From positions 12,776,186 through 12,840,185 of the forward strand of contig OX442317.1 of NCBI GenBank assembly GCA_949358305.1: a DNA stretch of 64,000 bases, written 5' to 3'. Below are positions 31,178 to 51,977 of the stretch, piece after piece. The position numbers and the translations under genes were made by a program. Each line of letters opens with the position of its first letter. Position 1 is the stretch's first letter. A model generated the notes under the pieces. That model searched no databases, was not told where the DNA came from, and saw nothing but the letters and a program-made list of their open reading frames with translations. This DNA is from Strigamia acuminata. Its lineage: Eukaryota; Arthropoda; Chilopoda; Geophilomorpha; Linotaeniidae.

Positions 31178-31181
31178 TTTT

Positions 31182-31204
31182 TGGTACCGTGACCCAAGGA
31201 TTTT
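31182..31204 (+). promoter_or_regulatory. E7 primer-binding site (tRNA-His-like)
   Basis: The site begins TGGTACCGTGACCCAAGGAT, 4 nt after the LTR. It differs from the canonical tRNA-His complement at base 5 (A for G), as E3 does, and has a degenerate 3' half. Confidence 0.65.
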
Positions 31205-31603: not shown

Positions 31604-31615
31604 ACACAACGCAAT
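31604..31615 (+). promoter_or_regulatory. Putative second tRNA-His contact site in E7
   Basis: ACACAACGCAAT occurs about 422 nt after the primer site. It is the same 12-mer as in E1, E3, E4 and E5. Confidence 0.5.
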
Positions 31616-31807
31616 GTCAATCTTCAAGTTCATCTGCAGCTGAAAAAAGAACAAGATTAATTTTAATTCAATTGCTGTTAGAATTTAAGAATTATATTTA
31701 TTTAAATTAATTCTTTATCTGATTTTTCAAGGAAGTTTCTGCCAATTTCGAGCTGTGTTTGGGGAGTTTAAAAAGGGGTTTTTTATGTCAATAATTTTAA
31801 ATATCAA

Positions 31808-31995
31808 GTTATTATCTCTTAAGTGCGGAGCTATTGTATATGATAGCTAATTATCTCTTTTGTGCAGCGCTATTATAAACTATAGCTATTATCTCTTTGT
31901 GCGGGGTTATTGTAAAATATAACTATTTATCTCTTTTGTGCAGTGATATTGTAAAAGATAACTAATTTATCTCGGTTGTGCGGTTAGATATTAAT
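31808..31995 (+). repeat. Leader minisatellite in E7, about 47-50-bp units
   Basis: Four to five diverged units each contain ttatctcttttgtgcag or a close variant, then an AT-rich tail. It may be RNA structure or simple expansion. Confidence 0.75.
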
Positions 31996-32309
31996 TATTA
32001 ATTTCGAACTAAGTGCATTTTGGGGGAATTATCAAGATATTTATGCGGATAAGTCAATTTGTGCGGTCAATAATTCCGTCCCAGTGTATTACGTATAGTG
32101 TGTTAAGTCAATTTGTCTGTGGCATTTCGGAGTTGAGTTTAGCATTTTATTTCGAGGTCGTTTTTCATTTGCACACCGCATTTGAATTAACGTTAAGCAA
32201 GTATAAGTAAGAGTCTGTGAAGTTCGGAGAATATTCGTGGGGATTTAATTAGCAGTGATTGAGTTGTTGAATAGAATTTTTATTCTCATTCTCTCTTTCT
32301 CGAGAATAA

Positions 32310-32572
32310 ATGGCAACTGCAGCTGGTTTGACCGCGGAAGCAGCGGAAGAGAAAGAAACACAATGGCAAGCCAAGGCCCAAGGAGCAGAGGATCTGCTCT
32401 CGACATCTGCAAACGTTCTCGACGGGGGTGAGCTTGAAGCTCTCCACGCAACAATAGATGCGCAGTTGAGTGACCTTATTGATGAGCTCGCTGTCTTTAA
32501 AGACAAGATAGAACGTTCAGATTACCTGCTTAGTTTGAGACGTCTCGAAGACATTAGGACTAAGGTCAATCT
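32310..32572 (+). pseudogene. E7 Gag N-terminus, split by the copia element
   Basis: The frame opens at ATG 32310 and encodes 87 residues before copia enters. It is BEL Gag-like: a Trp-containing acidic segment and the GGELEAL motif line up with GELEAL in E2 and E4, followed by a predicted helical, charged stretch. The frame is exactly continuous with 39565 once copia and one aatct copy are discounted, so it was one ORF before the insertion. As it stands the ORF is interrupted. Readthrough into the copia LTR would add about 37 unrelated residues before a stop. Confidence 0.88.
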
Positions 32573-33050
32573 TGTGGGGTTATTCCCGGCAATTCTGCAA
32601 ACGAAATCAAAAGAAACATCAGTTGAAACGGTGCGCGAAACCGACATGCGTGCGCCATCTTTAATTCGTGAGAATATCAGGTGATACACGGTTAGAGGCT
32701 ATTTGCACTCTCTAACAACATAGGATAAATCATTGTCAAGTTTCCAATGATTTGTCCTTTACAATCGCAAGTAAAAAACACCGACATTAATAATCGATAA
32801 ACCAAGGAAAAAGGATAAAACACAAATCGCTTTTTCAAGCAGACGACATCAGGGACGTGTGCTGTAAAGGAGAGAATATTCAACCGCGGTACATAACAAG
32901 CATTGATAAAAATCATTATCGGTTGAACACTGGATCGGGACATTAATTTACAACACACTTGTTACACATACTCGGAAATTGTGTAACCAATAAATCACGT
33001 AACACAGGAACAAATATTTAAGCACTTCAAAATGGGTTTGCAACCCAACA
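32573..33050 (-). repeat. Copia 3' LTR (478 bp)
   Basis: Direct copy of 39082-39559. The small minus-strand frame inside it is present in both LTRs and is not a gene. Confidence 0.95.
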
Positions 33051-33061
33051 AATCCCCCTTT
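33051..33061 (-). promoter_or_regulatory. Copia polypurine tract
   Basis: The sense strand reads AAAGGGGGATT immediately upstream of the 3' LTR, the normal place for the plus-strand primer. The BEL-like elements in this window lack such a tract. Confidence 0.85.
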
Positions 33062-33068
33062 GCTTAAA

Positions 33069-36000
33069 CTATTTGTCCATAACAAAAATGTGTTCGCAAA
33101 GAGTGTTTAACCTTGGTTTCGCTAACCATTTGGTTAAAATATCTGCCACGTTCAGAACCCCGGCAATGTGTCTAATAGAAAACGTTCCTTTTTCGAACCA
33201 GTCACGGACGAAATGCAGTTTGACATCTATATGTTTATTAGCGCGGTTTTCTATTCTATTTTTCGTATACTGAATCGCCGGCATACTGTCGGCATATACG
33301 CACGGGGTTGCGCGTTCGACACAAAACATAATGTCTGCGTCGTACAGTCGGTGAAGCCATATAATATCCTTCACCCCATCGACCACGGCCAGAAATTCAC
33401 TCTCCATGATCGACAGGGAGGTCATTGTCTGCTTATGGCAGTTCCATGAGATTGGAACCCCCCCTAGGTACACTATATGGCCCCCAAAGCTTCTTCTCTT
33501 GTCTTGGTCTAGGGCGAAAGACGCGTCAGTGTAGACAGTAAGGGAATCATTCCTACAATTCGATAAATCGATGGCATAGTTTGGTGTGTTCCCTAAATAT
33601 CGCAATACCTGCATCAGCATTCCAACATGACGCGCCGAATGTTTTTCATTGTATTGCGAGAGGACTATAACCGAAAAGAGGATATCAGGCCTAGTCCTGC
33701 TCGCAATAAAAAGGAGACTCCCGACCAAGTTCCTGTACGGAAATACCGTGTTCACCCGTTCACCCTCTTTAACTTGCTGGATCATTGTGCCAGGGGTCAC
33801 TGGCACTCGCACACGGTGACACGGATCCACTCCATACATCTTACACAGCTTTTCTATGTACTTTCTCTGGTGAATACGGATTCGCCCCCCGGATCTGTCG
33901 AATTCGATGCCCAACAATAGGGTCACCGGACCCAAATCAACAATGTCGAAGAAACCGCGAATCCATTTCAGGACGCATTTTTCGACGTAATCGTCTCTTG
34001 AAAAGAGTACGATATCGTCGACGTAGAAAATGATTACTGCTTCGTTGTCCAGAGAATAGACACAGTTCAGTCCTAGCATTGGCTCAAATCCCAATTGGAG
34101 CAGACAATCGTGGAGCGCTTGGTACCACATTCGTCCGCTCTGATGAAGGCCATATAAGGCCTTCAGCAGCATCCAACACTTATGTCGGTTTTTCGCTGTC
34201 CTGTAACCCTTGGGGACTTCACAATATTGCACTGTATCGAGGTCGCCATAGAGGTAGGCGGCCTTAATATCGATGTGCACGTCACGCCAGCCCTTAAGCA
34301 CTACCAGAGTGCAGAAGAACACGATAACGAGGACGAAATTGACAACGGGGGAAAATACCTCCGTAAAGTCAATTCCAGGCCTCTGTTTAAACCCTTGGGC
34401 CACCAATCGGGCCCGGTAGCGTTGAATTGCTCCGGTGTGATCGCGTTTCATCTTATATATCCATTTTGTCCCCAAAAGCTGTACGTCTTTAGGCTTGTCA
34501 ATTTCACGATAGACTTCTCGTTCATCAAAAATGTCAATCTCGTCCTTCATCGCCCCTTCCCAGTAGGGTTTGTTAATGCCCTCGATCGCCTCCTCGTAGG
34601 TGTCGGGCTCAATTGCACAAAACCCCGCAAAAGGTAAGGGTTCCTCCCCTTCTAACGTTTTGAAGTCGAAAAGGTTCGGATCGTATGCGTAACCTTCTCC
34701 ATCGCACCACCGTGCAACATCAGTTCGACTTCTAAGTTTGTCATCATTGGGCGAGAAATAAACAACGTCAACTTTTCCAGCCGTTGCCCCGGCTTTCCGG
34801 ACAGACTGGATTCTCCTCCATTTCGTCATATCCAGCGGCAATAACATTGGGTCTGGGGTTTCTTTCTCTTTCACCTTTCCCTTTTTACCCGAACCACGAC
34901 GAGTTTGTACCCCAGGAGGGGGTGCCAGATCTGGATCCTCATCGTCGTCAGGATAAACGTTTAAGAAATTTTCATCATCCCCCTTCGCCCCACCAATTTC
35001 TTCAACTGGATTATCTCCATCAATACCCTGCGCCCCACCAATTTCCTCATCATCCCCAATAGGATCAACTCCAATTGCAGGCAACTCAATTGTCCGCTGC
35101 ACATTTGGTCTCAAAGCAGGTCCTGGGGTTCTAGGTGGAATAGGGGGCGGAATGGGCGGTGGGATAGGAGGTGGCATAAAGGGTGGTGGCTGTCCAACAG
35201 GGACAACGGAATCATCGTCATCTTCCTCGGTGTCGGAGGAAGAGTAGCCAAAACTCTTAAATTCTTCGGATCCCCCTTGAGGTTGTCGAACTGGAGTCTG
35301 TAATCTCTTCCCAATCTCGTACCAATACGAGTCCTCGAAGATCCGCACGTGTTTTGACGCAAAAACTTGATTTGTTTTAGGGTCCCAGATCCTATAGCCC
35401 CTAGTGGAGATGGCATAGCCAACCAATGCTCCTGCCCATGCCCTACCCTCCAATTTGCTTTTGCGAGTCTGGGATGGAACATGAACAAAAGTCTTCGACC
35501 CAATGCATTTAATGTGTCGTAAAGATAGTTTCTTATTGAAAAATATCGAGTAAGGTGTTTTGCCTTCAATCCCCTGGTGAGGAAACCTATTCTTTAAGTA
35601 GACGATAGAAGTCGCCAATTCAGCCCAAAGGGGATAGGGGAAACTGTTCTCGAGCATCAAAGCCCTCACCCCGCTAATAATTGTACGGTTGGCCCTTTCA
35701 GCCACGGAATTCATTTCCGGAGAATATGCATTTGTTCGAATGCATTTTAATCCTATCTTGGAAGCGTAAGTGTCCCAATCCCGAGAAATAAATTCCCCGC
35801 CATTATCAGTCTTAATACATTTGACTTTCTTAGAAGTCGTTCTTTCCACTTCAGTTAGCCATCGTTTGAAATGACCCAAAACCTCCCCTTTGGTTTTCAT
35901 CATAATTATCCACATATACCGTGAATAGTCGTCCACGAGAATAAAATAGTAATTAGCCCCACCTAAGGAAGGACCCTGTGATTTCCCCCAGACATCCATG

Positions 36001-37895
36001 TGTACAATGTCTAAAATCCCTTTGGTTGAAATCGCAACTATAGGGGGAAAGCTTGCTCTCGTGCTTTTGGCGGTTGCACATGCGTCACAGGTAGACAATT
36101 CCTTAGTGGACAGGTTAATTCCAAATACGTCATCAGACTTTTCTAATTTTGAAATGCCTTTAGCATTGAGATGGCCCATCCTCGAATGCCATGTGTCCAT
36201 GGTTTGGGGCCGCTCCTGGTTTCTAACTTTCACATCATCGGCGTTTCCGCCGTTAGCTTTCGCTGTCGCATTAGCTTGGGGAATATTCACAGGAGGTGTC
36301 TGAACCTCATTCCCCGCTTTCGGCAAATTAATCGCCGCAGGCGCTGACGTTTTCTCGCTCACTTGCGCACTCAAATTAGCTGCGGACGTCCCTTTATCCG
36401 ACTTACTCAAACTTTTTAGTAATGCGTTCTTATAGTCTAAAATGGTTAGTAACGGTTGCACAAATCTTTCATCCTTTACAGATGATTTGATCAAGTCGAG
36501 GACAGCAGCCGCATTCTGTTGCGCAGTTAATGCAGCTGTGTTTACATTCCCAACCTCGATACGACAGTTAACTTTATACAATCTATTCGAAGTTCGAACT
36601 GCCGTAATCGATGGTTCCTCGATCTTATCTTTATAAATAAACATTTCCCCATTTTTGACAAATGTGCACATCCCAGCCTCATCGGTGCGTCCAAGTGAGA
36701 TGAGATTCTTCCGAAAATTGGGTGCGAAGAAAACATTCTTCAAAGTAATGTCCCTATGTCGGGTTCCATAAAGCGTGGTGATGACAACATTGCCGACTCC
36801 TTCGATTTTCGATTTGCCTTCACCTTGTTGTACGCTGAAGTTAGACAGCGGTCTAAAGTCCGAGAACCAACTCCGGTTGAAAGAGAAATGGTCGGTCGCC
36901 CCTGTGTCCACGTACCATTGAGAATCACAATTGCCGTGCGACACAAGGGATAATGGCTGTGCAGGTTTTTCCTCCAATACTGCCGAGTATAAAGTGTGGG
37001 GCTCATCCGCATACGGGTCCAGCTGTGTGAGATTTGCTCTCTGTTGCCCTTTTCCACGGCCCCTGCCACGTCCACTTCCTCGATTTAATTGGGCCGGCGA
37101 ACCAGCAGCGGCAGGAAAAGTCCCAAAAGCTCCTTGCTGTTTTGGAGGCGACGGGCACTCTCTAGCGAAGTGACCCGTCCCTCCACAATTAAAACAAGTG
37201 CCCCGTGAGGGCCCAGTAGCTGTTGAAGGTTTCCCACGTGGTTTCCATTTTTGCTTGGCAAATAATGCAGTATTGTCCATTTGTTGAGTTAGGACACCGA
37301 ATTCGTTGCTTGATTCGTAAAGGCGATTGTATTCGCCAAGCAACCTCTCTTTCACGTTTTTAGCCGTGAAGTCAGCATCTTCCCAATGATACGCTGTCTG
37401 TTTAATGTTCTCATATTGTGGGGGTAAGTGGTCCAAATACTGGAAAGCGTGGAACTCGTCGGAGACGTCGATTTTCACGTCTTTTAATTCCGTGACCTTC
37501 CGATCGACTCGCCCCGTGAAAACGAGCATTTCCTCGCCTTCTAACATTTTCATGTTCAAAAAGTCACGGCGCAGTCGAGCGCGGCGTGCCCTCGTCGTCG
37601 GTTGATAAGCGTCTTTTAACGCTTCCCAGACTTTTGCAGCAGTGGGACAAGAGACGGCAATAACTTGCTGAGGTTCCGCGCAGCTCATGCAAAGGGTTGA
37701 CATGGCTTTGTCCTCCCGGACTTTGAAGTCTCTTTTCTCCTTGGCTGTGGCGGTGTCAGGCGGTTGTTTCTCCGTGCCATCCACGTGACCCCAAACACCG
37801 TTGTATTTGAGGAGCAGCTGAACCTGCACCGACCACGTAGCATAGTTCGTACCGTCGAGTTTCTTAATATCCTTATAGTCGTCGTGTTTTGACAT
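33069..37895 (-). CDS. Ty1/copia Gag-Pol polyprotein (1608 aa)
   Basis: One uninterrupted frame. I chose ATG at 37895; the frame extends six codons further to a GTG at 37913, but that is not a usual animal start. The Gag has a CCHC knuckle at residues 234-247. The protease motif is DTGA at 330-333. Integrase has H570, H575, C603 and C606 and the triad D697, D733 region E733 (D-36-E spacing). A long acidic and proline-rich linker, including PPPIPPPIPP, is at about 888-1000. RT has D1209 (HIDIKAAYLYG) and YVDD at 1291-1294. RNase H has D1457, E1498 and D1536 followed by HIDVKLHF. It makes particles, copies its RNA and integrates the cDNA. All catalytic motifs are present. The stop lies 18 bp from the 3' LTR, next to the polypurine tract. 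Confidence 0.96.
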   Translation of the reverse strand: MSKHDDYKDIKKLDGTNYATWSVQVQLLLKYNGVWGHVDGTEKQPPDTATAKEKRDFKVREDKAMSTLCMSCAEPQQVIAVSCPTAAKVWEALKDAYQPTTRARRARLRRDFLNMKMLEGEEMLVFTGRVDRKVTELKDVKIDVSDEFHAFQYLDHLPPQYENIKQTAYHWEDADFTAKNVKERLLGEYNRLYESSNEFGVLTQQMDNTALFAKQKWKPRGKPSTATGPSRGTCFNCGGTGHFARECPSPPKQQGAFGTFPAAAGSPAQLNRGSGRGRGRGKGQQRANLTQLDPYADEPHTLYSAVLEEKPAQPLSLVSHGNCDSQWYVDTGATDHFSFNRSWFSDFRPLSNFSVQQGEGKSKIEGVGNVVITTLYGTRHRDITLKNVFFAPNFRKNLISLGRTDEAGMCTFVKNGEMFIYKDKIEEPSITAVRTSNRLYKVNCRIEVGNVNTAALTAQQNAAAVLDLIKSSVKDERFVQPLLTILDYKNALLKSLSKSDKGTSAANLSAQVSEKTSAPAAINLPKAGNEVQTPPVNIPQANATAKANGGNADDVKVRNQERPQTMDTWHSRMGHLNAKGISKLEKSDDVFGINLSTKELSTCDACATAKSTRASFPPIVAISTKGILDIVHMDVWGKSQGPSLGGANYYFILVDDYSRYMWIIMMKTKGEVLGHFKRWLTEVERTTSKKVKCIKTDNGGEFISRDWDTYASKIGLKCIRTNAYSPEMNSVAERANRTIISGVRALMLENSFPYPLWAELATSIVYLKNRFPHQGIEGKTPYSIFFNKKLSLRHIKCIGSKTFVHVPSQTRKSKLEGRAWAGALVGYAISTRGYRIWDPKTNQVFASKHVRIFEDSYWYEIGKRLQTPVRQPQGGSEEFKSFGYSSSDTEEDDDDSVVPVGQPPPFMPPPIPPPIPPPIPPRTPGPALRPNVQRTIELPAIGVDPIGDDEEIGGAQGIDGDNPVEEIGGAKGDDENFLNVYPDDDEDPDLAPPPGVQTRRGSGKKGKVKEKETPDPMLLPLDMTKWRRIQSVRKAGATAGKVDVVYFSPNDDKLRSRTDVARWCDGEGYAYDPNLFDFKTLEGEEPLPFAGFCAIEPDTYEEAIEGINKPYWEGAMKDEIDIFDEREVYREIDKPKDVQLLGTKWIYKMKRDHTGAIQRYRARLVAQGFKQRPGIDFTEVFSPVVNFVLVIVFFCTLVVLKGWRDVHIDIKAAYLYGDLDTVQYCEVPKGYRTAKNRHKCWMLLKALYGLHQSGRMWYQALHDCLLQLGFEPMLGLNCVYSLDNEAVIIFYVDDIVLFSRDDYVEKCVLKWIRGFFDIVDLGPVTLLLGIEFDRSGGRIRIHQRKYIEKLCKMYGVDPCHRVRVPVTPGTMIQQVKEGERVNTVFPYRNLVGSLLFIASRTRPDILFSVIVLSQYNEKHSARHVGMLMQVLRYLGNTPNYAIDLSNCRNDSLTVYTDASFALDQDKRRSFGGHIVYLGGVPISWNCHKQTMTSLSIMESEFLAVVDGVKDIIWLHRLYDADIMFCVERATPCVYADSMPAIQYTKNRIENRANKHIDVKLHFVRDWFEKGTFSIRHIAGVLNVADILTKWLAKPRLNTLCEHIFVMDK

Positions 37896-39081
37896 CACGA
37901 CGACACAATGCACAATAATAATGAAGGATGCACGAAAAAATCACTAAATTCGGAAATTATTCCGCACAAAACACTTCACTAGAATCAAATCACACAGTGC
38001 ACACTTGTCACCCACCAAAAATGAAGGCGAAAAAACAATTCCACCCGTGGGCAAACCGCTATAAGAGCGGCGATCAAACCTTGACTGGTCGTTCCCCAAC
38101 TCTTCCGTCCGACCTCCTAGGGTCGCGGGATCGGTTGGGTGGCCGTGAACAAGCCCAGACAAGAATACAGTGCCACGTACCCGACTGGACGTAGGGTGGC
38201 ACCGATACTAAGAGGGGACCAAAAACAAAAACTTAAAATTAACAAAGTTTCACGACAAAATGGTAAATACACTTTTGCGTTGTTAAGATGGGCGGATTGC
38301 GGGATCCGATCGTCGCAATCGCTTCCGTCCAGCGTAGAACGTTGTTTAGACGTTATCGGTGCGCGGAAATGGGGCTGACGCGCTACCGCTCGCACACGTC
38401 CGTGCAAAGCGGGGAAAAACGATCCAAAATCGTCGTCGCGCCCGTCCGCGCCTTCGTGTAGCACTCCGGGGTGCAAAACACGGCTTTTCCGGTCAAATAT
38501 TGTCGTGTACGCAGACTTATGCGTACAGAGACACTCGAAATTGGTTTCCACCGTCGACGGCGATGAAAATCCAAACAAAAATGGCCGCTGGTGAGGATTT
38601 GTTCTCCACCGGCGATCCACTGCTGATTTCCGATCGTTTTCGGTAATTTTCGCCTGATTCGGGGCGAAAATGCGTCGTATCAACGTTGATTCTCGTTGTT
38701 TCGGCGAGAATAATCGTCGTCTCGGCAAAAAGCTGGCGTCTAGGCGTGTATCGGCCCGAAAACACGTCGTTGCTACGTCGGCTGCACTGCCGAATCCAAA
38801 ATGGCCGCCGAAGAAAATTTGCTTCGTAACGGCGTGGAAAAGTGCTTATTTCGCACTGAAAATAAATATTTCGACACTGCTTACTGTCGTAATAGTCCGT
38901 TGTACTGTCCGCACACACAATCCCGACGATTTGAAAAAGTTGGCGAAGTTATTTCGCACGTCGCCGGCGATTCGTGTCTGCAACGACCTCGGCCGACGTC
39001 CTGCACTCGTTTCGTCTCGAAATGTTCCGGAAAACTCCCAAAAACTGCTGGCCTTATCGTCGCACAGCCTCTGCTACCACT
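37896..39081 (-). other. Copia 5' leader
   Basis: A 1.19-kb CpG-rich leader, clearly higher in GC than its surroundings. It carries ATGGCCGC (YY1-like) motifs near 38580 and 38801. No gene is recognised; the overlapping short frames on both strands are inconsistent with any family I know. Confidence 0.7.
39068..39079 (-). promoter_or_regulatory. Copia primer-binding site (initiator Met tRNA)
   Basis: The sense strand reads TGGTAGCAGAGG, 2 nt downstream of the 5' LTR. It is the exact complement of the 3' end of animal initiator Met tRNA (recalled). The plant version would read TGGTATCAGAG, so this supports an animal host. Confidence 0.85.
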
Positions 39082-39559
39082 TGTGGGGTTATTCCCGGCA
39101 ATTCTGCAAACGAAATCAAAAGAAACATCAGTTGAAACGGTGCGCGAAACCGACATGCGTGCGCCATCTTTAATTCGTGAGAATATCAGGTGATACACGG
39201 TTAGAGGCTATTTGCACTCTCTAACAACATAGGATAAATCATTGTCAAGTTTCCAATGATTTGTCCTTTACAATCGCAAGTAAAAAACACCGACATTAAT
39301 AATCGATAAACCAAGGAAAAAGGATAAAACACAAATCGCTTTTTCAAGCAGACGACATCAGGGACGTGTGCTGTAAAGGAGAGAATATTCAACCGCGGTA
39401 CATAACAAGCATTGATAAAAATCATTATCGGTTGAACACTGGATCGGGACATTAATTTACAACACACTTGTTACACATACTCGGAAATTGTGTAACCAAT
39501 AAATCACGTAACACAGGAACAAATATTTAAGCACTTCAAAATGGGTTTGCAACCCAACA
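39082..39559 (-). repeat. Copia 5' LTR (478 bp)
   Basis: Direct copy of 32573-33050, followed by the aatct target duplication and the resumed E7 gag frame. Confidence 0.95.
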
Positions 39560-39564
39560 AATCT

Positions 39565-41713
39565 TCTTAAGCAAAGGACGAAATTTTCAAAACAGATGCA
39601 GGATAAGTTTGGGGCACATCCCGGCGGAAATACGCTAATGAATTCTGGATTTCTGAACAACTCATCGATAATCTCAAGGAAGACTACAAAGCTTCCAAAG
39701 CTGACATTGCAGAAATTCGACGGGAATCCGATGGAGTATAAGAGCTTCATGGATATGTTTTCAACCACAGTTGACGCCGATGCCGAGTTATCGAACGTCG
39801 AAAAACTTCAATATCTTAAATCAAGTTGTATCGGGGAAGCGGAAGTGGCAATCAAGTCGTACCCACTTACTAACGATTCGTATTTAATGGCACTTAGTAG
39901 CTTAGAAGGACTTTTTGGGTCGGAAGTAGCCCAAAAGAACGCTCTGGCGAGGAAAATTCGTGAAACTGAAGCAGTTAAAGATTTGTACCCAATCAAGCCA
40001 GTAAAATCTCTATTGACGTCCCTCACCGGTGCTTTCCGAACATTAGAACAGTTGAAGTTCCCAGTTACGACTACTGGATTATTTCTAATCCCGGAATTAT
40101 TGCGGAAGTTTCCACCGGAATTGGGAAGACGATTTCATAGGATTTACAAAGGAAACGTGGAAAACGTTAATTTATTTCTCGAATTTGTAGCAAGCGAAGT
40201 CAGAGTAGCAGAATTATCAGACGATAGCGTATTTACCAGTCAGAAAGTCACCAAGAAGAGTGAGAAACCAGCAACTAGAGAGCAAAAAGAAGAATTACGA
40301 GGGACCATGTCATCTTGCGCGGTTGCGCAAAATACGTCATTCGGGTCTAATACGAAAGAATCATTCAAACCAAAATCAGGTCCAGTCCGGAAATTGATCT
40401 GTGCCTTCTGTGAAGGAGATCATTTCAACAATAATTGCGACGCAAATCTGGAAGTTTCGGAGAAATACGACATCGTTAAGCGAAAACGTCTATGCTTTAA
40501 TTGCCTGAGACCAAGCCATACAGTGGGTAACTGCCCTGTAAAATTTTGTTGCCGATCATGCGGTGGTCGACACCATTCTTCAATTTGTAACAGAGGTCAT
40601 GCGGAAAAGCCAACTGATACCAAAGAAGAGAACGTCTCCGCCAACGTCTCGTTGTCGGTCTCAAGTGACGTCCAGCTAATGGTTTTCACAGCATTGTTCG
40701 TCCGAAAGAGTGGCGAAACAATCCCAGTTCGTGGATTACTCGATCCGGGTAGTCATCGTTCATATATTACGAAGCGGTTAGCAAAGAAATTACACCTAAA
40801 CAAGATTGAGACGTATCACACCATGACCCAGTGTCTGCTGAACAAGGAACCAGTTCCTACAACTCATGACGTGTTTAGATTCGAGTTGCAGTCTCGTCAC
40901 GACAAGCAGAAAGTGTCTGTATTTGCTCTTGATACCGACACACTTCCCAATATAAAGGGAGTGATAGATCACCAAACGCTGCAACAAATCAAGTCGTTTA
41001 ATCTTGAGATGGCAGAACCACATCCCTCCGTGTCAGATGAGGTAGATGTCTTGATCGGAAGCGGAGCATGGTGGAAAATAATTCAAGCGGGAACGAAGAG
41101 AATTAGTCCAGAATTAGGAATGATGAAAACAGTTTTTGGATGGATTTTAAACGGACAAATTAACTCAAAAGAGCCTTCCATCTACAAAGACGATATCTCA
41201 CTGGGAGATGTATCGTGTATGGCGATCGATTCTGGAAAGAAGATGACTTTCAACACTTCAAAAAAGGACAAAGGCGGGTTTGGACAGGCGAATTCCACAT
41301 CAATGCCCGACGAGAAAAGCGAAAAGGGTGGAGTACGAGCAAAAGGCGTCATCGCTTCTCGTTTTGCCGCGAGCCGCTCTAGCGAGCTGGAGGTACGGCA
41401 TCCTGACGTCCCCATCGAATTGGAAATGGATGGAAAGCGGACGTTTAAAGGGATAAGGTCGGGCAAGATGGCGATTTCTCAGAGTCCTGACACACTGGAG
41501 TCTACGGAAAAGAAAGGAGAATTTCCAAAAAATTTCAAAAAAGATGAAGAAAAGGGTTTAAGTAAATGGAGGAAGATATTGAAATGGAGTCGCAAGAAAC
41601 TCACCAATTCGCACAGAAGATCAAATGCAGTCACAAAGGCCACGGGAAATATACATTTAGTAATTGGCCCAATGTTTTCTGGAAAAACTACTGCTTTACT
41701 TAATGTAATCCGA
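39565..41713 (+). pseudogene. E7 Gag-protease continuing into a thymidine-kinase-like domain (truncated)
   Basis: This resumes the E7 frame after copia; the first internal Met is at 39596 (numbering from there). The Gag region aligns with E2 and E4 (KLPKL, FDG, NVEKLQYL, GEA). Three zinc knuckles are at 269-281, 300-313 and 319-331. The A17-type protease has DPGS at 383-386 and the conserved FGWILNG at 514-520. E2 and E4 pass from this point into RT (KLW..…IGIN) within about 40 residues, but E7 never does. It has a hydrophilic, lysine-rich, unrecognised linker (about 525-680) and then GNIHLVIGPMFSGKTTALL (684-702). E3 cuts the frame after residue 706, and readthrough adds LTR-encoded residues to a stop at 41815. 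No stop or frameshift lies inside. The downstream half is outside the window. Confidence 0.87.
41645..41713 (+). pseudogene. N-terminal fragment of a type II thymidine kinase domain
   Basis: Twenty-three codons in frame with the E7 gag-protease ORF. GPMFSGKT (41666-41689) is the Walker A signature of the TK1-type thymidine kinase family. The preceding Gly-x-Ile-x-Leu-x-Ile strand and the following T-x-LL…IR helix are also placed as in that family. Such enzymes phosphorylate thymidine in the salvage pathway to dTTP. The lid, the Walker B Asp and the zinc site are not in this window, because E3 cuts the domain at once. The identification rests on one short but distinctive motif. The alternative is another P-loop NTPase, which I consider less likely given the exact P-M-F-S-G-K residues. 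Confidence 0.72.
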
Positions 41714-43290
41714 TGTTGCGAGCAAGAACGCAACAAAAAGGATCTGGAGATTTCACGTTGTTCATCTTCTGAAAGAAAGAAAAGGCTCTTTAATTTTGTT
41801 GTCAAGTTTAGATAGATTTTTAACACATATCTGACATGCCCAGTTGGTTTGCCGCTTTGTTGTCACGATCCTGGTAGTTCAAGAGGGTTGTCACTTCGCC
41901 TGCCACACCTGGAATGTTTGAAAGTTGTGTTTTTAGTCTTTTGTAATTAATTTATGTGTCTTTTTCACGTTTCTGAGTTATTTCTAGTATTTGTAAGTTC
42001 TCTCCTGTTTCCAGTTCACTTGCGAAGGAGATAGGCGTGCATCGGCAAGATGGCTGCCATAGCGCAAGTGAACTGGGAGATGGGAAGAACCTGAAATAAG
42101 CACAATTGTAGTTTTTGGTGCTTATTTTGCTTGTGATTTAATTTATACTAACTTGTATTGGTGTTTAAGGTAGTCCACAGGTGTCTTGGGTCGCTGGATG
42201 GGCGTTGGACATCGTTTGTGAGCGTTTGCGAGCGTCGGGCGTGAGCGTACGCCTTGCGACGCCTCTCGTGGTCGTGTGGGTCCTGCAAATGAGTTGAATT
42301 GGTCGGGTTTCAATGCCCAAGCACTGGGAAAGCTGTACTGACCGTTCTAAGACGCAGATCCATCGTTGAGAAGGCCTGTGAGTCGCTCGCGACCTTGTTT
42401 GGCTCCATTCACGTCATTTTAGCAGTTGCATGGTCGCCATCTTGGATTTGGTGCTGCACTGTTGCCCTGTTATTATTTCTTTTGGGGTTTTGAGGAGACC
42501 TGGACATAGGAAATATTTACTAGTTATTGTTTGTATAAATTACCAATATTAAGGGTTGTTAATCTAAGCTTTTACCTTTGTTATTGTATGGTTGTTACGG
42601 GTTAAGGTTTGTGACACTTTGCGCCCTCTTTTGGTGGCAATTGGGGTTTGGGCTCAGCATTGTGTTTTGAGTGCAGTTAATGTTAGTTTTAGCCTTTGAA
42701 TTATCTGTTAAGTTTAAGTGAAGTGCTGTTTGCACAGGTCATACTGTTTTCAAGGTGTTAGGTTAAGTTTTGCCTTTATTTATGTTAAGTTTGACATCTG
42801 TTGTCTATATACGGAAACCTTGTTGGCACTATTGTTATTATTCAAATCTGTATTGTTTGGTCACTGACATTTATTGTAATCAGGTGACCAGTTGTTAAGA
42901 GTAGGTTGCTAAAGAAGCAACTCAGTTGTTATCAGTTGTTAAGTATTAAAGCCAGTTGATGTTTTTCCTCCTTCTTTGGATAAATTATTCCTGGGTTTAT
43001 TTTACTTCAATAAACAGGATGACTTGTGAGTAGAGAGCTTTGCCTGCTCTCCTCCTCCCTGGGAGCACAGAATTTCTACCCAGCAGCTAAAGAGGTTTTG
43101 CCAATCACTTCATCTAAATGCAGTTAGGCCTAGTTTCATGCAGTCAGGCCTAATCCTTCTTCAAGTTAGGCTTGGGCTCAGAGAAAGGATTTCAGCTTGT
43201 TTCATCAACCACTATACAGTCTCGGGCGGTTTCCAGAGTGGTGACCAATTCGCCAGTCCTCCCCTGTGAGATCCAAGGTTGTTTGCTACA
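41714..43290 (+). repeat. E3 5' LTR (1577 bp)
   Basis: It begins with the terminal hairpin (TGTTGCG and CGCAACA arms, 41714-41735) and ends GTTTGCTACA. It includes the 14-bp inverted repeat at about 42011-42076 with AAGATGGCTGCC inside, a TATAAAT at about 42534 (possible TATA box) and the poly(A) signal AATAAA at 43009-43014. The 64-aa frame at 42299-42493 is also in E1 on the same sense strand, but it is not a recognisable gene. Confidence 0.93.
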
Positions 43291-43521: not shown

Positions 43522-44070
43522 GTGCAAGTTGAACAGCTACAGCCTGAAAGAAGAAGAACATTTTTAGTTATTAAAGTGTATTTTTGGTGGGCTGTTTTCT
43601 GGGTTTTTGATGTGTTCCTTCTGGGGGGAGGGGAAGTGTGCTTTTTTGTATTTAAGTTAGCATTTAAGTTTTGCACTCCATATAACTGCTTAAAGCAGGG
43701 GAGTTTCTGTTTGAATTAAGTTAGAATTTAGTTTTGCCTTCCTGTTGTTGAGCTTGTCCAGGAGGTGTCAGTGTGGTGTGTACGAGTCAAGTCAAGCTGA
43801 GCGGGACAATGCAATTGTCTTCAAGGAGCTTGTGGTTGCAAGGTCGCATCATGTGGTTGGCACATCAGGACGATGAAGACGGCTGGACAGTTAGCGGTGC
43901 AAGCGGGTTGCTGGTCGGTGCAGACAAGTCAAAGGACAAGTCACGCTCCAGTCAACTGAGCATTAACGCCAAGTCGTACGGGAAGGTGGACGCCTGCCGT
44001 CAGGGCAGAAAAGAAAGAAGACAAGCTTTGCTTTTATTAGTTTAGAAAGAGGTTTGTTAAGATTGAGAGC

Positions 44071-45618
44071 TGTTGCTAATCAGCATGGCAGTGTGTTAAG
44101 GATTATGGCTCAGCAGCCATCTTGTTTGATGTATAGTGGTAACTGATGGTAAAATATGTGGTTTCTTCTACCTTGCATGAATTCCCTGAATTTCCATGTT
44201 GAAAGATCATTCTTTCCTTGTCTGGATTGCTGGGAAGTTGTTGATCAGTAGTAGTTTATCTAGTTGGCCCAGGAACCCAGCTGGGTGGGGAAAAGAGTGT
44301 TTTTTCCTACTCTTCCATTAGGCCTAAGGCAAGAACACTAAGAGAGAGGAAAAGAACAACTTCTTTATATAACTTCTTTGAAAGAACTCTCATACAATAC
44401 ACACAAGCATGTGCAAACAAAGATCATACACTTTAAACAATCATAGGTCAACCAAACAAGTGTTAGAGCTGACCCTTTAACAATAAGATCATCAATCAAA
44501 ACACTAGAAACCTTTAAGGCTTCTGTACATAAGAAGAGTAACAATGTATGCTGGTCCCAATAGGTTTCCTTATTTGGTTCCAGCTTAAACCTAAATACAT
44601 TTGAATAATTACTTACAATTCAAGTTAGGGCTTACAAAGAACTACTGATAGTCCTAGAGCAATAAAAACAAGGTACATAGTAGATAGAATACATTGAAAT
44701 ATGATCACTACACATAAATACTGCTTCAGATTTAGCCCTAGAAGCCAACAGCCAATTAGATTGCTTAAAGCTTGAAAACCCTGAGAATTAATATTTTCCA
44801 ACTTTAAACCTAACAGAAAAATTGCTAATGTACATTAATATTCCTTAAATATTAATAGAATAATTAACAAATATTAAAAACCCATGATATCTGACTATTT
44901 TCAGATCTAAAACACCTTCAGTACAGCACTGAAACCAACATGGCTTCCTCATTGTCAAGGATTGGAGGCAAGCACTGCATTTCAAAGCCAGGAACAACTA
45001 GGCATGTGATTACGGGTATTTCCATATTAAATTATCTTAATATTAACTAACTAACTCATTCTAAGATGTTGCAGGCAACTGACATTGCCTGTAACAATGT
45101 ACAGATACAAGGATGCACTTTTAGGCTTAAAGGTGCACCCCGCGAAGTTTGCGGCCCTCGTAGCGCCTCAACCGTAGGTCCTAAAATTCCGCTCTATAGC
45201 CCATTGGAAAGAGCATGAAAAACTCTACAAAATGGTATATTTTACGGATTTTTAGGATAACTTTTTGATATTGAATTTAACACTTTTTCCCTTCAGGTTA
45301 GCAGCTAAGAAATACAAATCAACTCAAATAAAGAAACAAGAAGAACTCAACTACTATACCAGCCTCAACATATGCAAGATTTGAAGGTAATAAAATATAT
45401 TTAACTTAACTGTATAAATTAAATAACTAGAATAATCTGAACTCTTGTTTTCCAGATCTACCGTGAAGAGCTTTTGTGATGGCTCAACCACAACTTGCAT
45501 CACTTTGAAGAGCGGTAATTTCAGATGAGTAACTCTTTGATTCCAGTCACTAAGAATTAAATTAAAATAAAATTCCTCCTTTTCAGATTTGCATCATCTC
45601 CTGTTGCAATTCGCAACA
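44071..45618 (-). repeat. E4 3' LTR (1548 bp)
   Basis: Direct copy of 51978-53525. The sense start is a 17-bp hairpin, TGTTGC-gaatt-GCAACA (45602-45618). A sense-strand TATATAAAG lies at about 44363-44371. A cagcagccatcttg motif (YY1-like on the sense strand) is at 44111-44124. Confidence 0.94.
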
Positions 45619-45670
45619 GCGCTGCCGGCGAAAAAAAAGGAAAAAGAAATTCACGTCTTCGCTGAATTAA
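45619..45670 (-). other. E4 pyrimidine-rich tract before the 3' LTR
   Basis: This 52-bp interval reads, on the sense strand, TTTCTTTTTCCTTTTTTTT then CGCCGGCAGCGC and the LTR. It is pyrimidine-rich, opposite to a normal polypurine tract, and shares GGC.GGCAGCG with E1. Confidence 0.65.
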
Positions 45671-48600
45671 TCATTCCATCTCCAAAGCACGGATATGCTT
45701 TACCGAACGAATTAATTCCTTCTGCTCACAATCCACAACCTTCACGACTCGAATCAATCCATCTTCTCCCGGGTAGACCTCTGTTATTCTGGCAAGTGGC
45801 CAAAAGTAGGGATTCTTGCCCATTCTCTCAAGCAAAACCACTTGTCCCACTTTTGGGTTCTTGAAGCCTCGATCTCCCTTGGTTTCATGGAAATTTCTTA
45901 ACTGTTTAAGGTAGCTGTTCTTCCAATGATTCCAAAACTCAAAGATGTACTGACGTCGTTTCTTCTCCAACTTCCTCAAGTCCTTGCGCTTGATGGCGGA
46001 AAGCGATTTGTTTAGCAGGTACTTTGGCATACCGCCAGTTAAGAAGTTCTCTGGAGATAATATGTACCCTCCGTCTACCTCGTCGTGAACATAAGATAGG
46101 GGACGGGAGTTGATGACCGATGCAATTTCCAAACTCAAAGTTTGGAGTGTCTCTAAATCCACTAGTCTTCTTCTTAAGACCTTGCGGAGCTTATCTTTCA
46201 CTGCACGCACCATGCGTTCCCAAGCTCCTCCGAACCAGGGAGAGCGCGGTGGAATGAAGTTCCATATAACGTGTTGGTCAGTGAACAAGGTCCGAATCTG
46301 GTCGTGAGCAAGCAGAGTGCCCCAGGACAGAATTTCCAGATTTCCTCGTTCGAATGTTTTAGCATTATCGGTGTAGATTCGAGCTGGATATCCGTACCGA
46401 GCGCAGAACCTCCGAAACGCTAGCAAAAACTTCTCAACGGATAAGTCTTCGGTGACTTCTAGGTGTATTCCCCGTGAAACTAAACACGTGAATAGTAGAA
46501 TGTAGACCTTTCTTGAGGTGTCTTGGGTATCTCGCACATAAATGGGTCCCATGTAATCCATTCCTGTTGTGGCAAATGGAGCTGCCGGAGTGGTTCGATC
46601 CGCTGGAGGATCCCCCGTTAATGGGTCATTATGAGTCAATTTCCCAATCCTGCAGGTCGTGCATTGTCGTATGACTGACTTAACAGTACCTCTTCCTCTT
46701 ACGACCCAATATCTATCTCTAACTCTATAGAGAGTCTCGCTTAGGTCTCCGTGTAGTAAATCTTCGTGCGTCTTCCTGATGATAAGGCGTGTCACCCACG
46801 AGTCAGGATGCAGAAGAATAGGATACTGCTCTTCGTACTGTAACGGTGAATGTCTTAAACGACTTCTTAGGCGTAGAAGCCCATCTTCATCAATGAATGG
46901 ATCGAAATTTTTCAGTGGGGAGCCCTTATCTAAATCTCTTTTTTCTCTTACAGCTTCAAAATCGTCTTCGAAATGTATTTCCTGAGATCGTCGAATGAGT
47001 TCTCTTTCTGCTTTATCCAACTCGTTCCTCACGAGGTATACCCCGCCGAACGAAAGAGTCCTCCAGCGACGAATGTACGCATAGACTCCAATGAGTCTCT
47101 TTAACGAATCGTATTTGGTCACAAATTCTCTAAATCCATCCCTTTGAACGGAAGTAATAATATTTGCTGGTTTGACCTTTTTCGCATCTTCAGGCATCTC
47201 TACTTCGTTTGAAGATGACGACGGAATGACCTCCGTGCCTTCCCACCAGATACGACATTCCCGGAGTTCCTTTGCTTTTCTCGGGCGAGTCAAAAGGTCC
47301 GCAGGATTCGATGCTGTGGGGACATGAGACCATTGCGACTGTTCTGATTTCTCATTTATTTCTTGAATACGATTAGAAACGTAGGGCTTCCACTGGTTAC
47401 GTATCGACTTGATCCAAGCAAGTGTGATCTCGGAGTCGGAGTAATAACGTACTGCGGTGATTGGATATCCGGGTAAGAAATTCTTCGTCACGTACGAACA
47501 CATTCTAACCCCTATGACCGCAGCAGTTAATTCCAACCTTGGTAGTGTTAGTTTGGTCAAGGGCGCTATTCTACATTTACTCAGAAGTAATGTCCGTTTC
47601 CCTTGATCATTTAAAATGTAGATTGCGCATCCATATGCCTTTGGACTTGCGTCGCAAAATACTTCTAGCGTGATATCCCTCTTTGAATAGGTTTCTAACC
47701 ATCTCTTGACTTTTAGCTCTTTCAGCTCTTGGATATCCTTGCACCAATCTTCAACTTCTTGGCGCTCTGTCTCTGAAATCGGTACGTCCCATCCTATTGA
47801 TTGACTACAGATTTCGCGTAATAGTAGTTTCATCCGCAGAACCACTGGAGAAATTAAGCCTAGCGGATCAAACACGGATGCCGCGAGCGACAACATCTCC
47901 CTTCTGGTTCTCGGAGTATTCTCGGCTGAGGGAATATTGAACATCATGACGTCTTCCTGGACGTTCCATAATATTCCTAACATCTTGATGAATTCCAAGT
48001 CTTCAAACTTGTCACTTCTCATGTGGAACCCTTCTTCTTGTAGATTTCTGAAAACCTCTTCACTAGGTGTGACCCACTTTACTAGCGGCATTTGCGCATC
48101 GTCTAAGATCTTTCGCAATAGCCCGCAGTGTTCTGATGTGTCTTGTGTACCGTCGCCTCCTGAAGTTAAATCGTCCATGTAAATCCCTTGATCTAACGCT
48201 TCCGCCTCCTTCGGGTAAACGTCAATGAAGAGCTTGGCTTGCTTGCGGATCGCAGCACAGAGTAAGAATGGCGATGAATTAACTCCGAACGGAACGACTG
48301 TCATACGTAAAATTACTAAGTTCTCCCATAAACTTTCCCACGAGTATGGTTTGGAGAAGTAGTCCTTGGCAACCCATAGAAATCTCAGAAAATTTCTGTA
48401 TGTTGGGTTGATTGAAACTTGCAAAAAAGCTTGTTTGATGTCGGCTATTGCTGGGATGCAATACAATCTAAACCGAATCATCACTAGAATTATATCCGGA
48501 TTCAGGGACGGCCCCGGATACAAACAATCATTTAGTGAATATTGGCCTTTCTTAGAGGAGGAAGCATTGAAGACGACACGGAACTTCGTTGTATCCCTGT

Positions 48601-51073
48601 CTTCTCGTATGATTGGGTGATGTGGAATGTAATAGGTGTCCTTGTCTAGAAACCTCTCTTCTTTAGGAACTTGCTCGGCATGATCCTGTTCAACATATTC
48701 CCACATCGCTTTATCGTAACGAGCTTTGTAATCTTCATTGTCGTCAATTCTCCTCAAGGTCGAACCCAATTGGTTCAGTGCCAAATTCCAGTTTTGATCC
48801 AATTGACCAATTTTCTCATTCGTAGGTAATGAGACTTCATACCGTCCATTCGGAAGACGAGTGGCGGTCTTGTCAAATCGATCTCTCACGAAATCGGATG
48901 TCTTCTCACCAGGGTTTATCCCAATTGAGTCAAGCGTCCATAACTTTTCCAATTCTTTGTACTCAGGAGAAGTATTCCAGTTAGCACTGGTGATCAACAT
49001 GTTAGCGTCAGGAAGCAAACTTTGGTGTCCAATTGCTCCTGAAACGACCCATCCAAATATGGTCTTGATCAGTCCACACTGTTTATTAAGTCTCTTCCTT
49101 CCGTTGATGAACACCTCCCACCAGACATCTACACCGAGCAGGATCTCAATGTCATTCGTCTGTGACGGCAACTCTTCAGCTAGCTCCAGTCCCAGGCCTT
49201 TAATCCTTCGGACAGCTTCTGGGTCTACTACTCCTGATACAAACGGAAGACAATCAGTTGTTAATGCTGATACCAGAAGTCCTTTTCTGTCATGTCGAGA
49301 TTTCAACTTCAGGTGATGAACATCATGACAAGTTGACTTCGGCGTCTGATCATTGAACCGCTGTGTGGCTACATGAACTTCTCCGTCTTTCTTCAGTTTC
49401 AGCTTCTGCGCAAGACTCTTGACTATAAATGAACGGTGACTCGCTGGGTCTATGATTCCGCGAACTCTATGGAACTTTCCACCTGGGATCTTCAGGTCCG
49501 CAGTAAAGACCATAAGTTGCAGCTGATCGGATGCGACCAACGAGACGCTCACTGTTGCTTCACCTGGTGACTTTTCCTTGCCTGAGTCCACTTTGACTAA
49601 CATCTTTCGGCAGATCGTTGTGTGATGACGTCCACCGCAATGTTGGCAGGAAAACTTCATGCTACAGTCGCGCATTTGATGTCCGGTATGAAGACAGTTA
49701 AAGCAAAGGTTAGCTTTCCTTACAATCTCGAACTTCTTCGCTACATCCATCAACTTCTTGCAACTGCCATTTTGATGCTCGTTGCTATTGCAAAAGGCGC
49801 ACTTATGCCTTGGCAATTCCTTCCTAGTCCCTCTTGTCTGTTGAATCGCAACGCATGTTGCCATGGATGACCTCGGACTTTCCTTTGTTGACTCTGTCTT
49901 GTCAACCTTCACCTGCTTATCTGATCCCAAAGCCTCTTCAACGCGTTCCGCGTTTGTTACTTCGTCTGAGATAAAGTCGAGCAGGGTAACTAAATTGTCG
50001 GACTTCGCTCCATGCTTCTCATAGAAACGAACGACGATCTTCTTTGGAAATTTCTTCAAAATCTCCGGTGCTAAGAACATCCCAGATGTCTCCACTGGAA
50101 CTTTTAGCTGTGCCAACAGGCGTACAGCTGATGAAATCTGAGTGAGCAAACTCTTCACTGCCTTAACTGGGTGTAACTCCTTCACGGGCTTGGCACTCTT
50201 TACTGACTTAATTAGTGCGACCCGTTGCGTGTCTTCAGCTCCATAACTCCTTGTCAACTCGGCTCTAGCAAGTTCGTATGACCCAGTGGTCAATGGAAAA
50301 GAAGAAATCAAGGCCGATGCTTCTCCGGTACAGCTTGCACGTAGGTATTGCAGCTTCTCGATTTCGGTCAAATCAGGATCATTGTGGACCGCTGTGTCGA
50401 ATCCACCCAGGAATGACCTGTATTGAAGCACGTCTCCTCTAAACTTCTCTAACTCAAGTTTAGGCAACTTGGAGTTCTTCCTTCTTGCAACCATGGACGA
50501 GTTCAACCCTGAGGCGGTCAAGTTGGCTGAAGTGTCAGCAATACTGGTTCCTCCTAATCGAGAAATCGATCGCATTGCGACATCGGCTCTCTTCCGTAAC
50601 AAGTCCATCTTGTCTTTCACTTCTTCGGCTCGAGTAACATTGTTCATGTATTGTTTGAGGTCAACCAGCTTCTTCAGTTCGTTGAGACCATTAATCATCC
50701 GGGTAACTTTTCCTTCTGCAGATGCAGCTATGGCTTCGAGTTCTCCGGCATCACAAATGTCCCTGGACTCATCTAAAAGGTTCTCTAAACCTCCGGTGTG
50801 CGTATCCCATACGGCTTCCTGTAATCGGATCTCATCCTTAGTAGGTCCGGTCAAGTGTCCAGTATGATGTCCAGCAGAAGGTCCAGCCTGAGTTCCGGTC
50901 TGAGGTCCAGTCTGAAGTACAGGTGGAGGTCCAGTCTGCTGTCCAAGTGGAAGTCCAGTCTGAGATCCAGTTAGATGTCCAGTCAAACGTCCAGCTGATG
51001 TCCTCGGGATAGGAGAGGTCACTCTCGAAGTAGGAGCTGACATCAGTCTTATGTCCTCTTTTGTCTCGGACAT
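45671..51073 (-). CDS. E4 BEL/Pao Gag-Pol polyprotein (1800 aa)
   Basis: One frame from ATG at 51073 (A at -3); the frame reaches a GTG at 51100, which I do not take as the start. A low-complexity Thr-Gly-Pro-Gln segment (about residues 27-76), encoded by a minisatellite, precedes Gag; E2 lacks it. Zinc knuckles are at 425-438, 457-470 and 476-488. The protease reads DPAS at 542-545, where E2 and E7 have DPGS. RT has D878 and YMDD at 965-968. RNase H has D1141, E1181, D1213 and D1259. Integrase has H1436, H1441, C1471, C1474 and the triad D1506, D1569, E1619. There is no stop or frameshift. All enzyme motifs are intact except that the protease Gly-to-Ala change touches the active-site loop. 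Reaction and location are as for E2. Confidence 0.96.
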   Translation of the reverse strand: MSETKEDIRLMSAPTSRVTSPIPRTSAGRLTGHLTGSQTGLPLGQQTGPPPVLQTGPQTGTQAGPSAGHHTGHLTGPTKDEIRLQEAVWDTHTGGLENLLDESRDICDAGELEAIAASAEGKVTRMINGLNELKKLVDLKQYMNNVTRAEEVKDKMDLLRKRADVAMRSISRLGGTSIADTSANLTASGLNSSMVARRKNSKLPKLELEKFRGDVLQYRSFLGGFDTAVHNDPDLTEIEKLQYLRASCTGEASALISSFPLTTGSYELARAELTRSYGAEDTQRVALIKSVKSAKPVKELHPVKAVKSLLTQISSAVRLLAQLKVPVETSGMFLAPEILKKFPKKIVVRFYEKHGAKSDNLVTLLDFISDEVTNAERVEEALGSDKQVKVDKTESTKESPRSSMATCVAIQQTRGTRKELPRHKCAFCNSNEHQNGSCKKLMDVAKKFEIVRKANLCFNCLHTGHQMRDCSMKFSCQHCGGRHHTTICRKMLVKVDSGKEKSPGEATVSVSLVASDQLQLMVFTADLKIPGGKFHRVRGIIDPASHRSFIVKSLAQKLKLKKDGEVHVATQRFNDQTPKSTCHDVHHLKLKSRHDRKGLLVSALTTDCLPFVSGVVDPEAVRRIKGLGLELAEELPSQTNDIEILLGVDVWWEVFINGRKRLNKQCGLIKTIFGWVVSGAIGHQSLLPDANMLITSANWNTSPEYKELEKLWTLDSIGINPGEKTSDFVRDRFDKTATRLPNGRYEVSLPTNEKIGQLDQNWNLALNQLGSTLRRIDDNEDYKARYDKAMWEYVEQDHAEQVPKEERFLDKDTYYIPHHPIIREDRDTTKFRVVFNASSSKKGQYSLNDCLYPGPSLNPDIILVMIRFRLYCIPAIADIKQAFLQVSINPTYRNFLRFLWVAKDYFSKPYSWESLWENLVILRMTVVPFGVNSSPFLLCAAIRKQAKLFIDVYPKEAEALDQGIYMDDLTSGGDGTQDTSEHCGLLRKILDDAQMPLVKWVTPSEEVFRNLQEEGFHMRSDKFEDLEFIKMLGILWNVQEDVMMFNIPSAENTPRTRREMLSLAASVFDPLGLISPVVLRMKLLLREICSQSIGWDVPISETERQEVEDWCKDIQELKELKVKRWLETYSKRDITLEVFCDASPKAYGCAIYILNDQGKRTLLLSKCRIAPLTKLTLPRLELTAAVIGVRMCSYVTKNFLPGYPITAVRYYSDSEITLAWIKSIRNQWKPYVSNRIQEINEKSEQSQWSHVPTASNPADLLTRPRKAKELRECRIWWEGTEVIPSSSSNEVEMPEDAKKVKPANIITSVQRDGFREFVTKYDSLKRLIGVYAYIRRWRTLSFGGVYLVRNELDKAERELIRRSQEIHFEDDFEAVREKRDLDKGSPLKNFDPFIDEDGLLRLRSRLRHSPLQYEEQYPILLHPDSWVTRLIIRKTHEDLLHGDLSETLYRVRDRYWVVRGRGTVKSVIRQCTTCRIGKLTHNDPLTGDPPADRTTPAAPFATTGMDYMGPIYVRDTQDTSRKVYILLFTCLVSRGIHLEVTEDLSVEKFLLAFRRFCARYGYPARIYTDNAKTFERGNLEILSWGTLLAHDQIRTLFTDQHVIWNFIPPRSPWFGGAWERMVRAVKDKLRKVLRRRLVDLETLQTLSLEIASVINSRPLSYVHDEVDGGYILSPENFLTGGMPKYLLNKSLSAIKRKDLRKLEKKRRQYIFEFWNHWKNSYLKQLRNFHETKGDRGFKNPKVGQVVLLERMGKNPYFWPLARITEVYPGEDGLIRVVKVVDCEQKELIRSVKHIRALEME
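50846..50995 (-). repeat. Coding minisatellite at the E4 Gag N-terminus
   Basis: Repeats built on ggtccagtctgag and related 12- to 18-bp units encode a Thr-Gly-rich, probably unstructured segment. All units keep the frame. Confidence 0.8.
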
Positions 51074-51962: not shown

Positions 51963-51977
51963 GAAAAACAACTGCTC

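Follow-up and report, generated by a model that had tools for sequence, protein, structure and literature searches.

The genome of the geophilomorph centipede Strigamia acuminata contains a long terminal repeat (LTR) retrotransposon of the BEL/Pao type that joins Gag, a protease region (PR) and a thymidine kinase (TK) in one open reading frame (ORF), with no polymerase region (Pol) in the copies examined. We describe it from a stretch of 64,000 nucleotides (the window; GenBank assembly GCA_949358305.1, contig OX442317.1, C5:12776186-12840185 in our contig numbering), in which one interrupted copy, designated E7, lies among other mobile elements, and from further copies across the genome. The element is defined by its LTRs and target duplications, a sequence resembling a primer-binding site (PBS), open and recent copies, and a kinase that is conserved in two families. 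We consider it probable that this is a non-autonomous retrotransposon in which a linker and a complete TK1-type kinase stand in place of the reverse transcriptase (RT), RNase H and integrase, that RT and integrase are borrowed, and that the kinase supplies thymidine mono- and triphosphate (dTMP and dTTP).

RESULTS

Gag, a protease region and thymidine kinase share one reading frame in many genomic copies

A preliminary description of the window had reported that the BEL Gag-protease frame of E7 runs into the start of a thymidine kinase, and had proposed a genome search for uninterrupted copies. We searched 237.5 Mb in 157 contigs with the TK profile PF00265 and scored the best 150 of 205 candidates, so that the counts given here are lower bounds. 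Of the scored matches, 92 were of the BEL type, as sorted by frame-length class, and were distributed over 18 contigs; the other 58 were not. Uninterrupted copies proved to be plentiful: 84 of the 92 BEL-type matches lie in frames of 995, 1002, 1009 or 1013 amino acids (aa; n = 32, 5, 13 and 34, respectively) that are free of stops within the match. Because so many matches sit in open frames of these lengths, the fusion seen in E7 is not due to chance. Seven of the remaining BEL-type matches are shorter, and one has a frame of 1022 aa with a TGA. Frames were read or matched at loci L001-L003, L012, L013, L025, L028, L030, L031, L034 and L037. Two longer frames, of 1118 and 1999 aa, were considered as RT-bearing kinase elements; they run through N blocks (L018 and L019).

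The element occurs as two old families, A (represented by L013) and B (L028), with 51.7% identity across 992 aligned positions, almost the entire ORF; each has a diverged member (A2 at L002 and B2 at L025). In both families the ORF follows the same plan, from Gag and PR through a linker to TK and a basic tail of 45-62 residues. It is bounded by LTRs, and the 5′ LTR has a PBS-like site on its inner side. The BEL Gag domain DUF1759 (PF03564) is recognized with E values of 3.9e-15 in A and 1.7e-17 in B. The Gag-PR part is 36-39% identical to that of E2 and E4, two autonomous BEL elements whose polyproteins are single uninterrupted frames on the minus strand of the window (45671-51121 and 13069-18414, respectively). 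As for the protease, which the preliminary description had placed at a DPGS motif, the motif is present and the blastp alignment to E2 and E4 spans it, but family A matches the profiles Asp_protease_2 and DUF1758 only below their cut-offs, and for B neither profile is among those listed.

LTR pairs with 4-bp target duplications were found in E7 (CAGT), L030 (CAGT) and L031 (ACTG). The two LTRs of an element differ by one base in L031 and by none in L030, L028, L012 (1261 bases compared), E7 and L010/L009, and copying of these six dated elements was therefore recent. From the window copy alone, it would not have been possible to exclude an assembly or annotation artefact, or a P-loop contributed by a transposon inserted into a BEL element. 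Open frames in many copies, BEL-type matches on 18 contigs, an LTR at either end of the element, and the target duplications seen in E7, L030 and L031 leave such explanations with next to no probability, and we rejected both; the P-loop lies within the element, between its own LTRs. A scan of five loci against Rfam returned no match, and a scan of viral contigs with the ORF returned four pattern matches, none of which is a relative.

The kinase domain is complete and more constrained than the adjoining linker

In E7, the preliminary description had seen the P-loop motif GPMFSGKT in a TK1-like context, with only 23 kinase codons visible before E3. In intact copies, the frame after this motif encodes a complete TK1 domain. 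The whole of PF00265 is matched in two intact kinases (profile positions 1-176 and 3-176), at 184.9 bits (E = 1.5e-54) and 182.2 bits (E = 1e-53) against a cut-off of 20.6 bits. Among relatives of solved structure, human TK1 scores best (E = 2.4e-45). A motif check located DEGQFF and both C-x2-C pairs in A and B, and the thymidine-binding loop VVGG..KY..TCR is present. When 29 kinases including A, A2 and B were aligned, 31 columns were invariant, including those of the P-loop and the greater part of DEGQFF. The P-loop, DEGQFF, four zinc cysteines and a thymidine-binding loop are features of TK1-type kinases.

We compared selection among parts of the ORF as the ratio of nonsynonymous to synonymous divergence (dN/dS, by the method of Nei and Gojobori) in three pairs within families; between A and B, dS is saturated in Gag-PR and TK. 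For Gag-PR, linker, TK and tail, respectively, dN/dS is 0.07, 0.39, 0.12 and 0.32 between A and A2; 0.06, 0.55, 0.18 and 0.21 between B and B2; and 0.12, 0.85, 0.19 and 1.40 between the family-B copies at L028 and L012. The linker serves as an internal control: constraint on the kinase is far stronger than on the linker, though a little weaker than on Gag-PR. Host genes captured by LTR elements are often passengers, a frequent status that speaks for a kinase carried along without benefit. Against this, the kinase has been kept across the split between A and B (52% identity), and its dN/dS of 0.12-0.19 compares with 0.39-0.85 in the linker, so we regard a passenger as highly unlikely. The motif check also recorded the basic tail, a basic linker in family A, and the absence of a KEN motif; the tail and the absent KEN motif agree with, rather than show, a possible escape from cell-cycle control.

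Four elements examined contain no Pol

The preliminary description had noted that E7 leaves the pattern of E2 and E4 before RT. The intact copies bear this out, as family A resembles E2 and E4 up to about residue 620, where the latter two proceed towards RT. A tblastn search with the Pol of E2 and E4 found no match inside any of the four elements examined (L012, L028, L030 and L031), which rejects an RT elsewhere in the element for these copies; the Pol match in L028 starts only where the 3′ LTR ends, continues outside the element, and is on the opposite strand. The question of what became of RT is thus answered for the copies examined: none of the four shows a match to the RT, RNase H and integrase region that characterizes autonomous BEL/Pao elements. 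Without RT, the kinase element is unable to copy itself alone.

Uninterrupted autonomous BEL elements are present in the window, namely E4 (1781 aa) and E2 (1816 aa), whose LTR pairs are 100% and 99.9% identical, respectively. The motif TTTTCG(C/G)CGGCA before the 3′ LTR is common to A, B and E2. Directly inside the 5′ LTR of E7 is TGGTACCGTGACCC (31182-31195, plus strand), which we call a PBS by convention, from its position and its TGG start. A 25-mer around this site, which we used to look for an autonomous partner, occurs at 45 sites in the genome (41 exact and four with one mismatch) and at none in a backward control. A kinase match lies about 3.5-4 kb downstream, as judged by eye, at 34 of the 41 exact sites, and one other exact site is that of E7. 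Among the other six, L034-L037 were examined in part (3 kb each), and C1:64302068 and C21:236707 were left out. At L034 a kinase copy is interrupted within the P-loop, and the kinase copy at L037 changes frame before the last cysteine pair. At L036 there is a BEL Gag-PR frame, 36% identical to A, that extends past the 3-kb stretch. L035 shows a Copia-type frame and no match to our queries. Two of the four one-mismatch sites were examined: L032 is a BEL element with Pol, interrupted in the middle, whose upstream PBS-like site has 1 of 25 bases changed relative to A, and L033 had no match to the queries.

The window copy is split by nested insertions

E7 belongs to family A and begins at position 30222, directly after a satellite array; all of its parts listed here are on the plus strand. 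Its 5′ LTR spans 956 bp (30222-31177), and the leader that follows (31178-32309) contains no frame of at least 120 aa in the ORF scan of the window. From the gag ATG at 32310, a first piece of the Gag-PR-TK frame, starting MATAAGL..., runs to 32572, where it is cut by a Copia LTR retrotransposon nested in gag on the minus strand (32573-39559). The latter has a frame of 1623 aa (33069-37940), repeats that are identical over 484 bases in a self-comparison of the window (32571-33054 and 39080-39563), and a target duplication, AATCT, at 32568-32572 and 39560-39564.

The second frame piece (39560-41713) carries Gag, the zinc knuckles, PR, the linker and the start of the kinase. In the ORF scan it is part of a frame open from stop to stop (39512-41815, 767 aa), composed of the end of the Copia LTR, the E7 part and the first bases of a nested BEL element, E3. 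The domain order is DUF1759 (39716-40147; PF03564, E = 2.6e-15), three zinc knuckles (40400-40588; read off the translation, with the same motifs found by regular expression in two intact copies), the DPGS motif of the protease active site (40742-40753; Asp_protease_2 and DUF1758 matches below their cut-offs), a linker for which blast finds no similarity to Pol of either E2 or E4 (41157-41644; dN/dS of 0.39-0.85 between near relatives), and the first 23 codons of the TK domain, GNIHLVIGPMFSGKTTALLNVIR (41645-41713). These codons alone exceed the PF00265 cut-off (23.3 versus 20.6 bits; E = 6.5e-5). The preliminary description was therefore right about the open frame from BEL Gag to the kinase start, the three knuckles and the TK1-like context of the P-loop. 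The right edge that it gave, 41713, is exact; its left edge, 39565, marks the point where the Copia duplication has ended and not the start of the element.

The kinase is split by insertions that occupy 41714-64000 and extend past the end of the window. The first base of E3 is 41714, and its target duplication, CCGA, is at 41710-41713 and at L029:3877-3880. Two elements in turn split E3, namely E2 (44070-53526; LTRs 44070-45619 and 51977-53526) and another LTR element (55952-63977; LTRs 55952-56982 and 62947-63977). Continuing past E3, as the preliminary description had advised, we found that the kinase resumes after CCGA at C5:12844066 (L029:3881), stays open until a stop after the same tail as in intact copies, and is followed by the 3′ LTR (C5:12844735-12845690; L029:4550-5505), which is identical to the 5′ LTR at 956 of 956 bases. 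In L029, the next 10 kb, an alignment of 959 positions that takes in the remaining kinase sequence and the beginning of the 3′ LTR agrees with an intact copy at 98.6%, and the CAGT duplication flanks the whole element.

The closest kinases are other multicopy kinases of the same genome

A tree with 47 rows places the four BEL kinases in a group of their own (support 100/97). This group joins four TK ORFs that are dispersed in the same genome, and the larger group so formed has a long stem (100/99). P0191 was left out of this tree because the motif is absent, and the branch of one dispersed row, of 221 aa, is long. The capture of the kinase looks single and seems to have come from within this host lineage. 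The 58 other TK matches, which are dispersed and outside BEL frames, comprise classes of 190, 216, 221 and 269 aa and others, and 40 of the 58 belong to the single 190-aa class. At L026 and L027, dispersed TKs lie within a repeat of more than 9.9 kb; parts of L016, L018 and L019 read N. The phylogeny that the preliminary description had called for thus gives nearest relatives that are themselves multicopy, so that transfer may have gone in either direction and an ordinary host TK1 is a possible source.

Copies are clustered, and several adjoin a satellite

On the seven contigs of known length, which hold 68 of the 92 BEL-type copies, these copies are strongly clustered: the median distance to the nearest neighbor is 36 kb, compared to 898 kb after shuffling, with none of 1,000 shuffles as low. 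The 190-aa TK class is not clustered on those seven contigs (28 of 40 matches; 392 of 1,000 shuffles as low). A 140-bp satellite forms the 3′ flank of 7 of the 11 family-A elements examined, and the window contains arrays of the same satellite at 1-9109 and 26905-30223, in units of about 140/147 bp. Three of the seven satellite junctions (E7, L030 and L031) fall at the same monomer position, 25-28, and at the same four bases, CAGT. Because L031 is oriented the other way, no fewer than two of the three must have inserted independently, and a target preference is possible. Judging by the positions of LTR, PBS and kinase matches, head-to-tail kinase elements at C5:14359997-14371361 and C13:9873156-9883567 seem to have LTRs in common, an arrangement that LTR-LTR recombination would produce.

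These distributions bear on whether the element might instead serve the host, with its kinase copies supplying a nucleotide salvage enzyme and the BEL parts being incidental. A search with a cnidarian TK1 found no better-matching ordinary host TK1 gene among the best 150 of 202 candidates, the matches being multicopy classes or BEL-type, and the other TK ORFs are also multicopy, both of which would suit a service to the host. Yet an intron-split TK1 could have escaped the best 150 candidates, and Gag-PR is constrained just as strongly. Moreover, copies occur in clusters, and satellite adjoins 7 of the 11 family-A copies checked. We therefore judge service to the host to be very unlikely.

DISCUSSION

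Captured enzymes, dUTPase among them, are known from retroelements. The kinase element resembles the autonomous BEL/Pao elements E2 and E4 in its DUF1759 Gag, zinc knuckles, DPGS motif, single long ORF, and a PBS-like site and a motif before the 3′ LTR that are similar in sequence, and family A also has LTR ends of the form TGTT...GCAACA in common with them. It differs in that E2 and E4 proceed to RT, RNase H and integrase, where the kinase element has its linker and TK1 domain. Among described systems, the nearest kinds are dUTPase-bearing LTR elements of bdelloid rotifers and Gag-only TR-GAG elements of plants. In the former, a dUTPase domain lies between PR and RT (PMC5408684), so that an enzyme of nucleotide metabolism is likewise placed next to the protease in the polyprotein; the rotifer elements keep RT, however, whereas the kinase stands where RT would be. 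TR-GAG elements, like the kinase element, are non-autonomous LTR elements that keep a Gag frame of their own, and one has been seen transposing with Gag alone (PMC8704663). In the portions of that source available to us, they encode Gag only, with no protease or captured enzyme. The kinase ORF adds a protease region and a kinase, and the element may work like a TR-GAG but is not one. Teratorn, a giant DNA transposon of largely herpesvirus derivation, is a mobile element described in a paper that mentions thymidine kinase (PMC5601938), but it is not an LTR retroelement.

The statement of the preliminary description that it knew of no described BEL/Pao element with a thymidine kinase holds for the proteins and literature searched. 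ORF residues 700-1002, compared with 5.8 billion proteins (hit length 0.55-1.75 times that of the ORF), gave three matches among 1,902 candidates (Trebouxia, an ankyrin protein of Blattella, and one unnamed), none of which is a BEL fusion by domains or name. None of the papers listed by the literature searches shows a retroelement that carries a kinase, and the term “kinase” does not occur in the accessible part of a BEL/Pao review (PMC3118150); Repbase and preprints were outside the search, so an unpublished library entry may exist. Other unusual TKs appeared in the protein searches, namely the ankyrin-TK of Blattella and Anaeramoeba proteins of 374-386 aa (P0004 and P0006-P0010 together); in alignment, P0006 looks like two tandem TK domains.

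How might an element of this composition propagate? We propose that it would build its own particle and favor its own RNA; both are probable because Gag and protease are under selection even though Pol is gone. Autonomous BEL elements in the same genome would provide RT and integrase in trans. As part of the same polyprotein, the kinase would be made one-to-one with Gag and is thus probably carried in or near the particle, where it could phosphorylate thymidine to dTMP and ease a shortage of dTTP during cDNA synthesis in non-dividing cells. In vertebrates, cytosolic TK1 is low outside S phase; a private kinase would therefore help cDNA synthesis in resting or germ cells. A local supply of dTMP/dTTP for cDNA synthesis is the most likely role of the kinase, its catalysis being inferred, and the conserved residues and purifying selection agree with this function. 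A fuller scheme, which we put forward tentatively and think less probable, is a division of labor in which one kind of element gives coat, protease and kinase and another gives RT and integrase, the kinase being a shared or particle-local source of precursors that would allow BEL cDNA synthesis where dTTP is scarce, and in which the exchange of Pol for the kinase took place once, before A and B split, and was kept by selection.

Several observations weigh against a borrowed RT and a catalytic kinase. The window copy is interrupted, and it has DEEQFF where the intact copies read have DEGQFF. The dN/dS values come from three pairs only, with a noisy dS near 1 for A and A2 and a tail value of 1.4 on 62 codons between the two family-B copies; uneven dS along the latter pair suggests recombination, and selection could act on something besides catalysis. 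We found no autonomous element with near-identical LTRs or Gag, the other BEL Gags seen being 36-40% identical to A or B, and borrowing in trans is therefore deduced from need. Finally, nearly invariant positions of the 29-row alignment are altered, D111 to N in A and G112 to V in B. The altered positions would also fit a kinase domain retained not for catalysis but for a structural or regulatory job, such as Gag oligomerization, RNA or nucleotide sensing, or particle assembly. TK1 enzymes are tetramers, and a tetrameric TK1 fused to Gag could aid assembly; the basic tail and, in family A, the basic linker point the same way. A purely structural job would not, however, need all of the P-loop, DEGQFF and the cysteine pairs, which are kept in A, A2 and B, and we consider it unlikely. 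A catalytic kinase that feeds cDNA synthesis remains the reading we favor.

A salvage kinase that replaces reverse transcriptase was not found in the literature searched, and the ORF suggests that a mobile element may provide itself with one of the ingredients of DNA. The copies are numerous and occur in clusters, and LTR comparison shows the six that were dated to be young, which offers much natural variation to study. If the kinase works, precursor supply would be something that a retroelement can bring along, and these elements would provide a natural case in which to ask whether deoxynucleotide supply limits retrotransposition in vivo.
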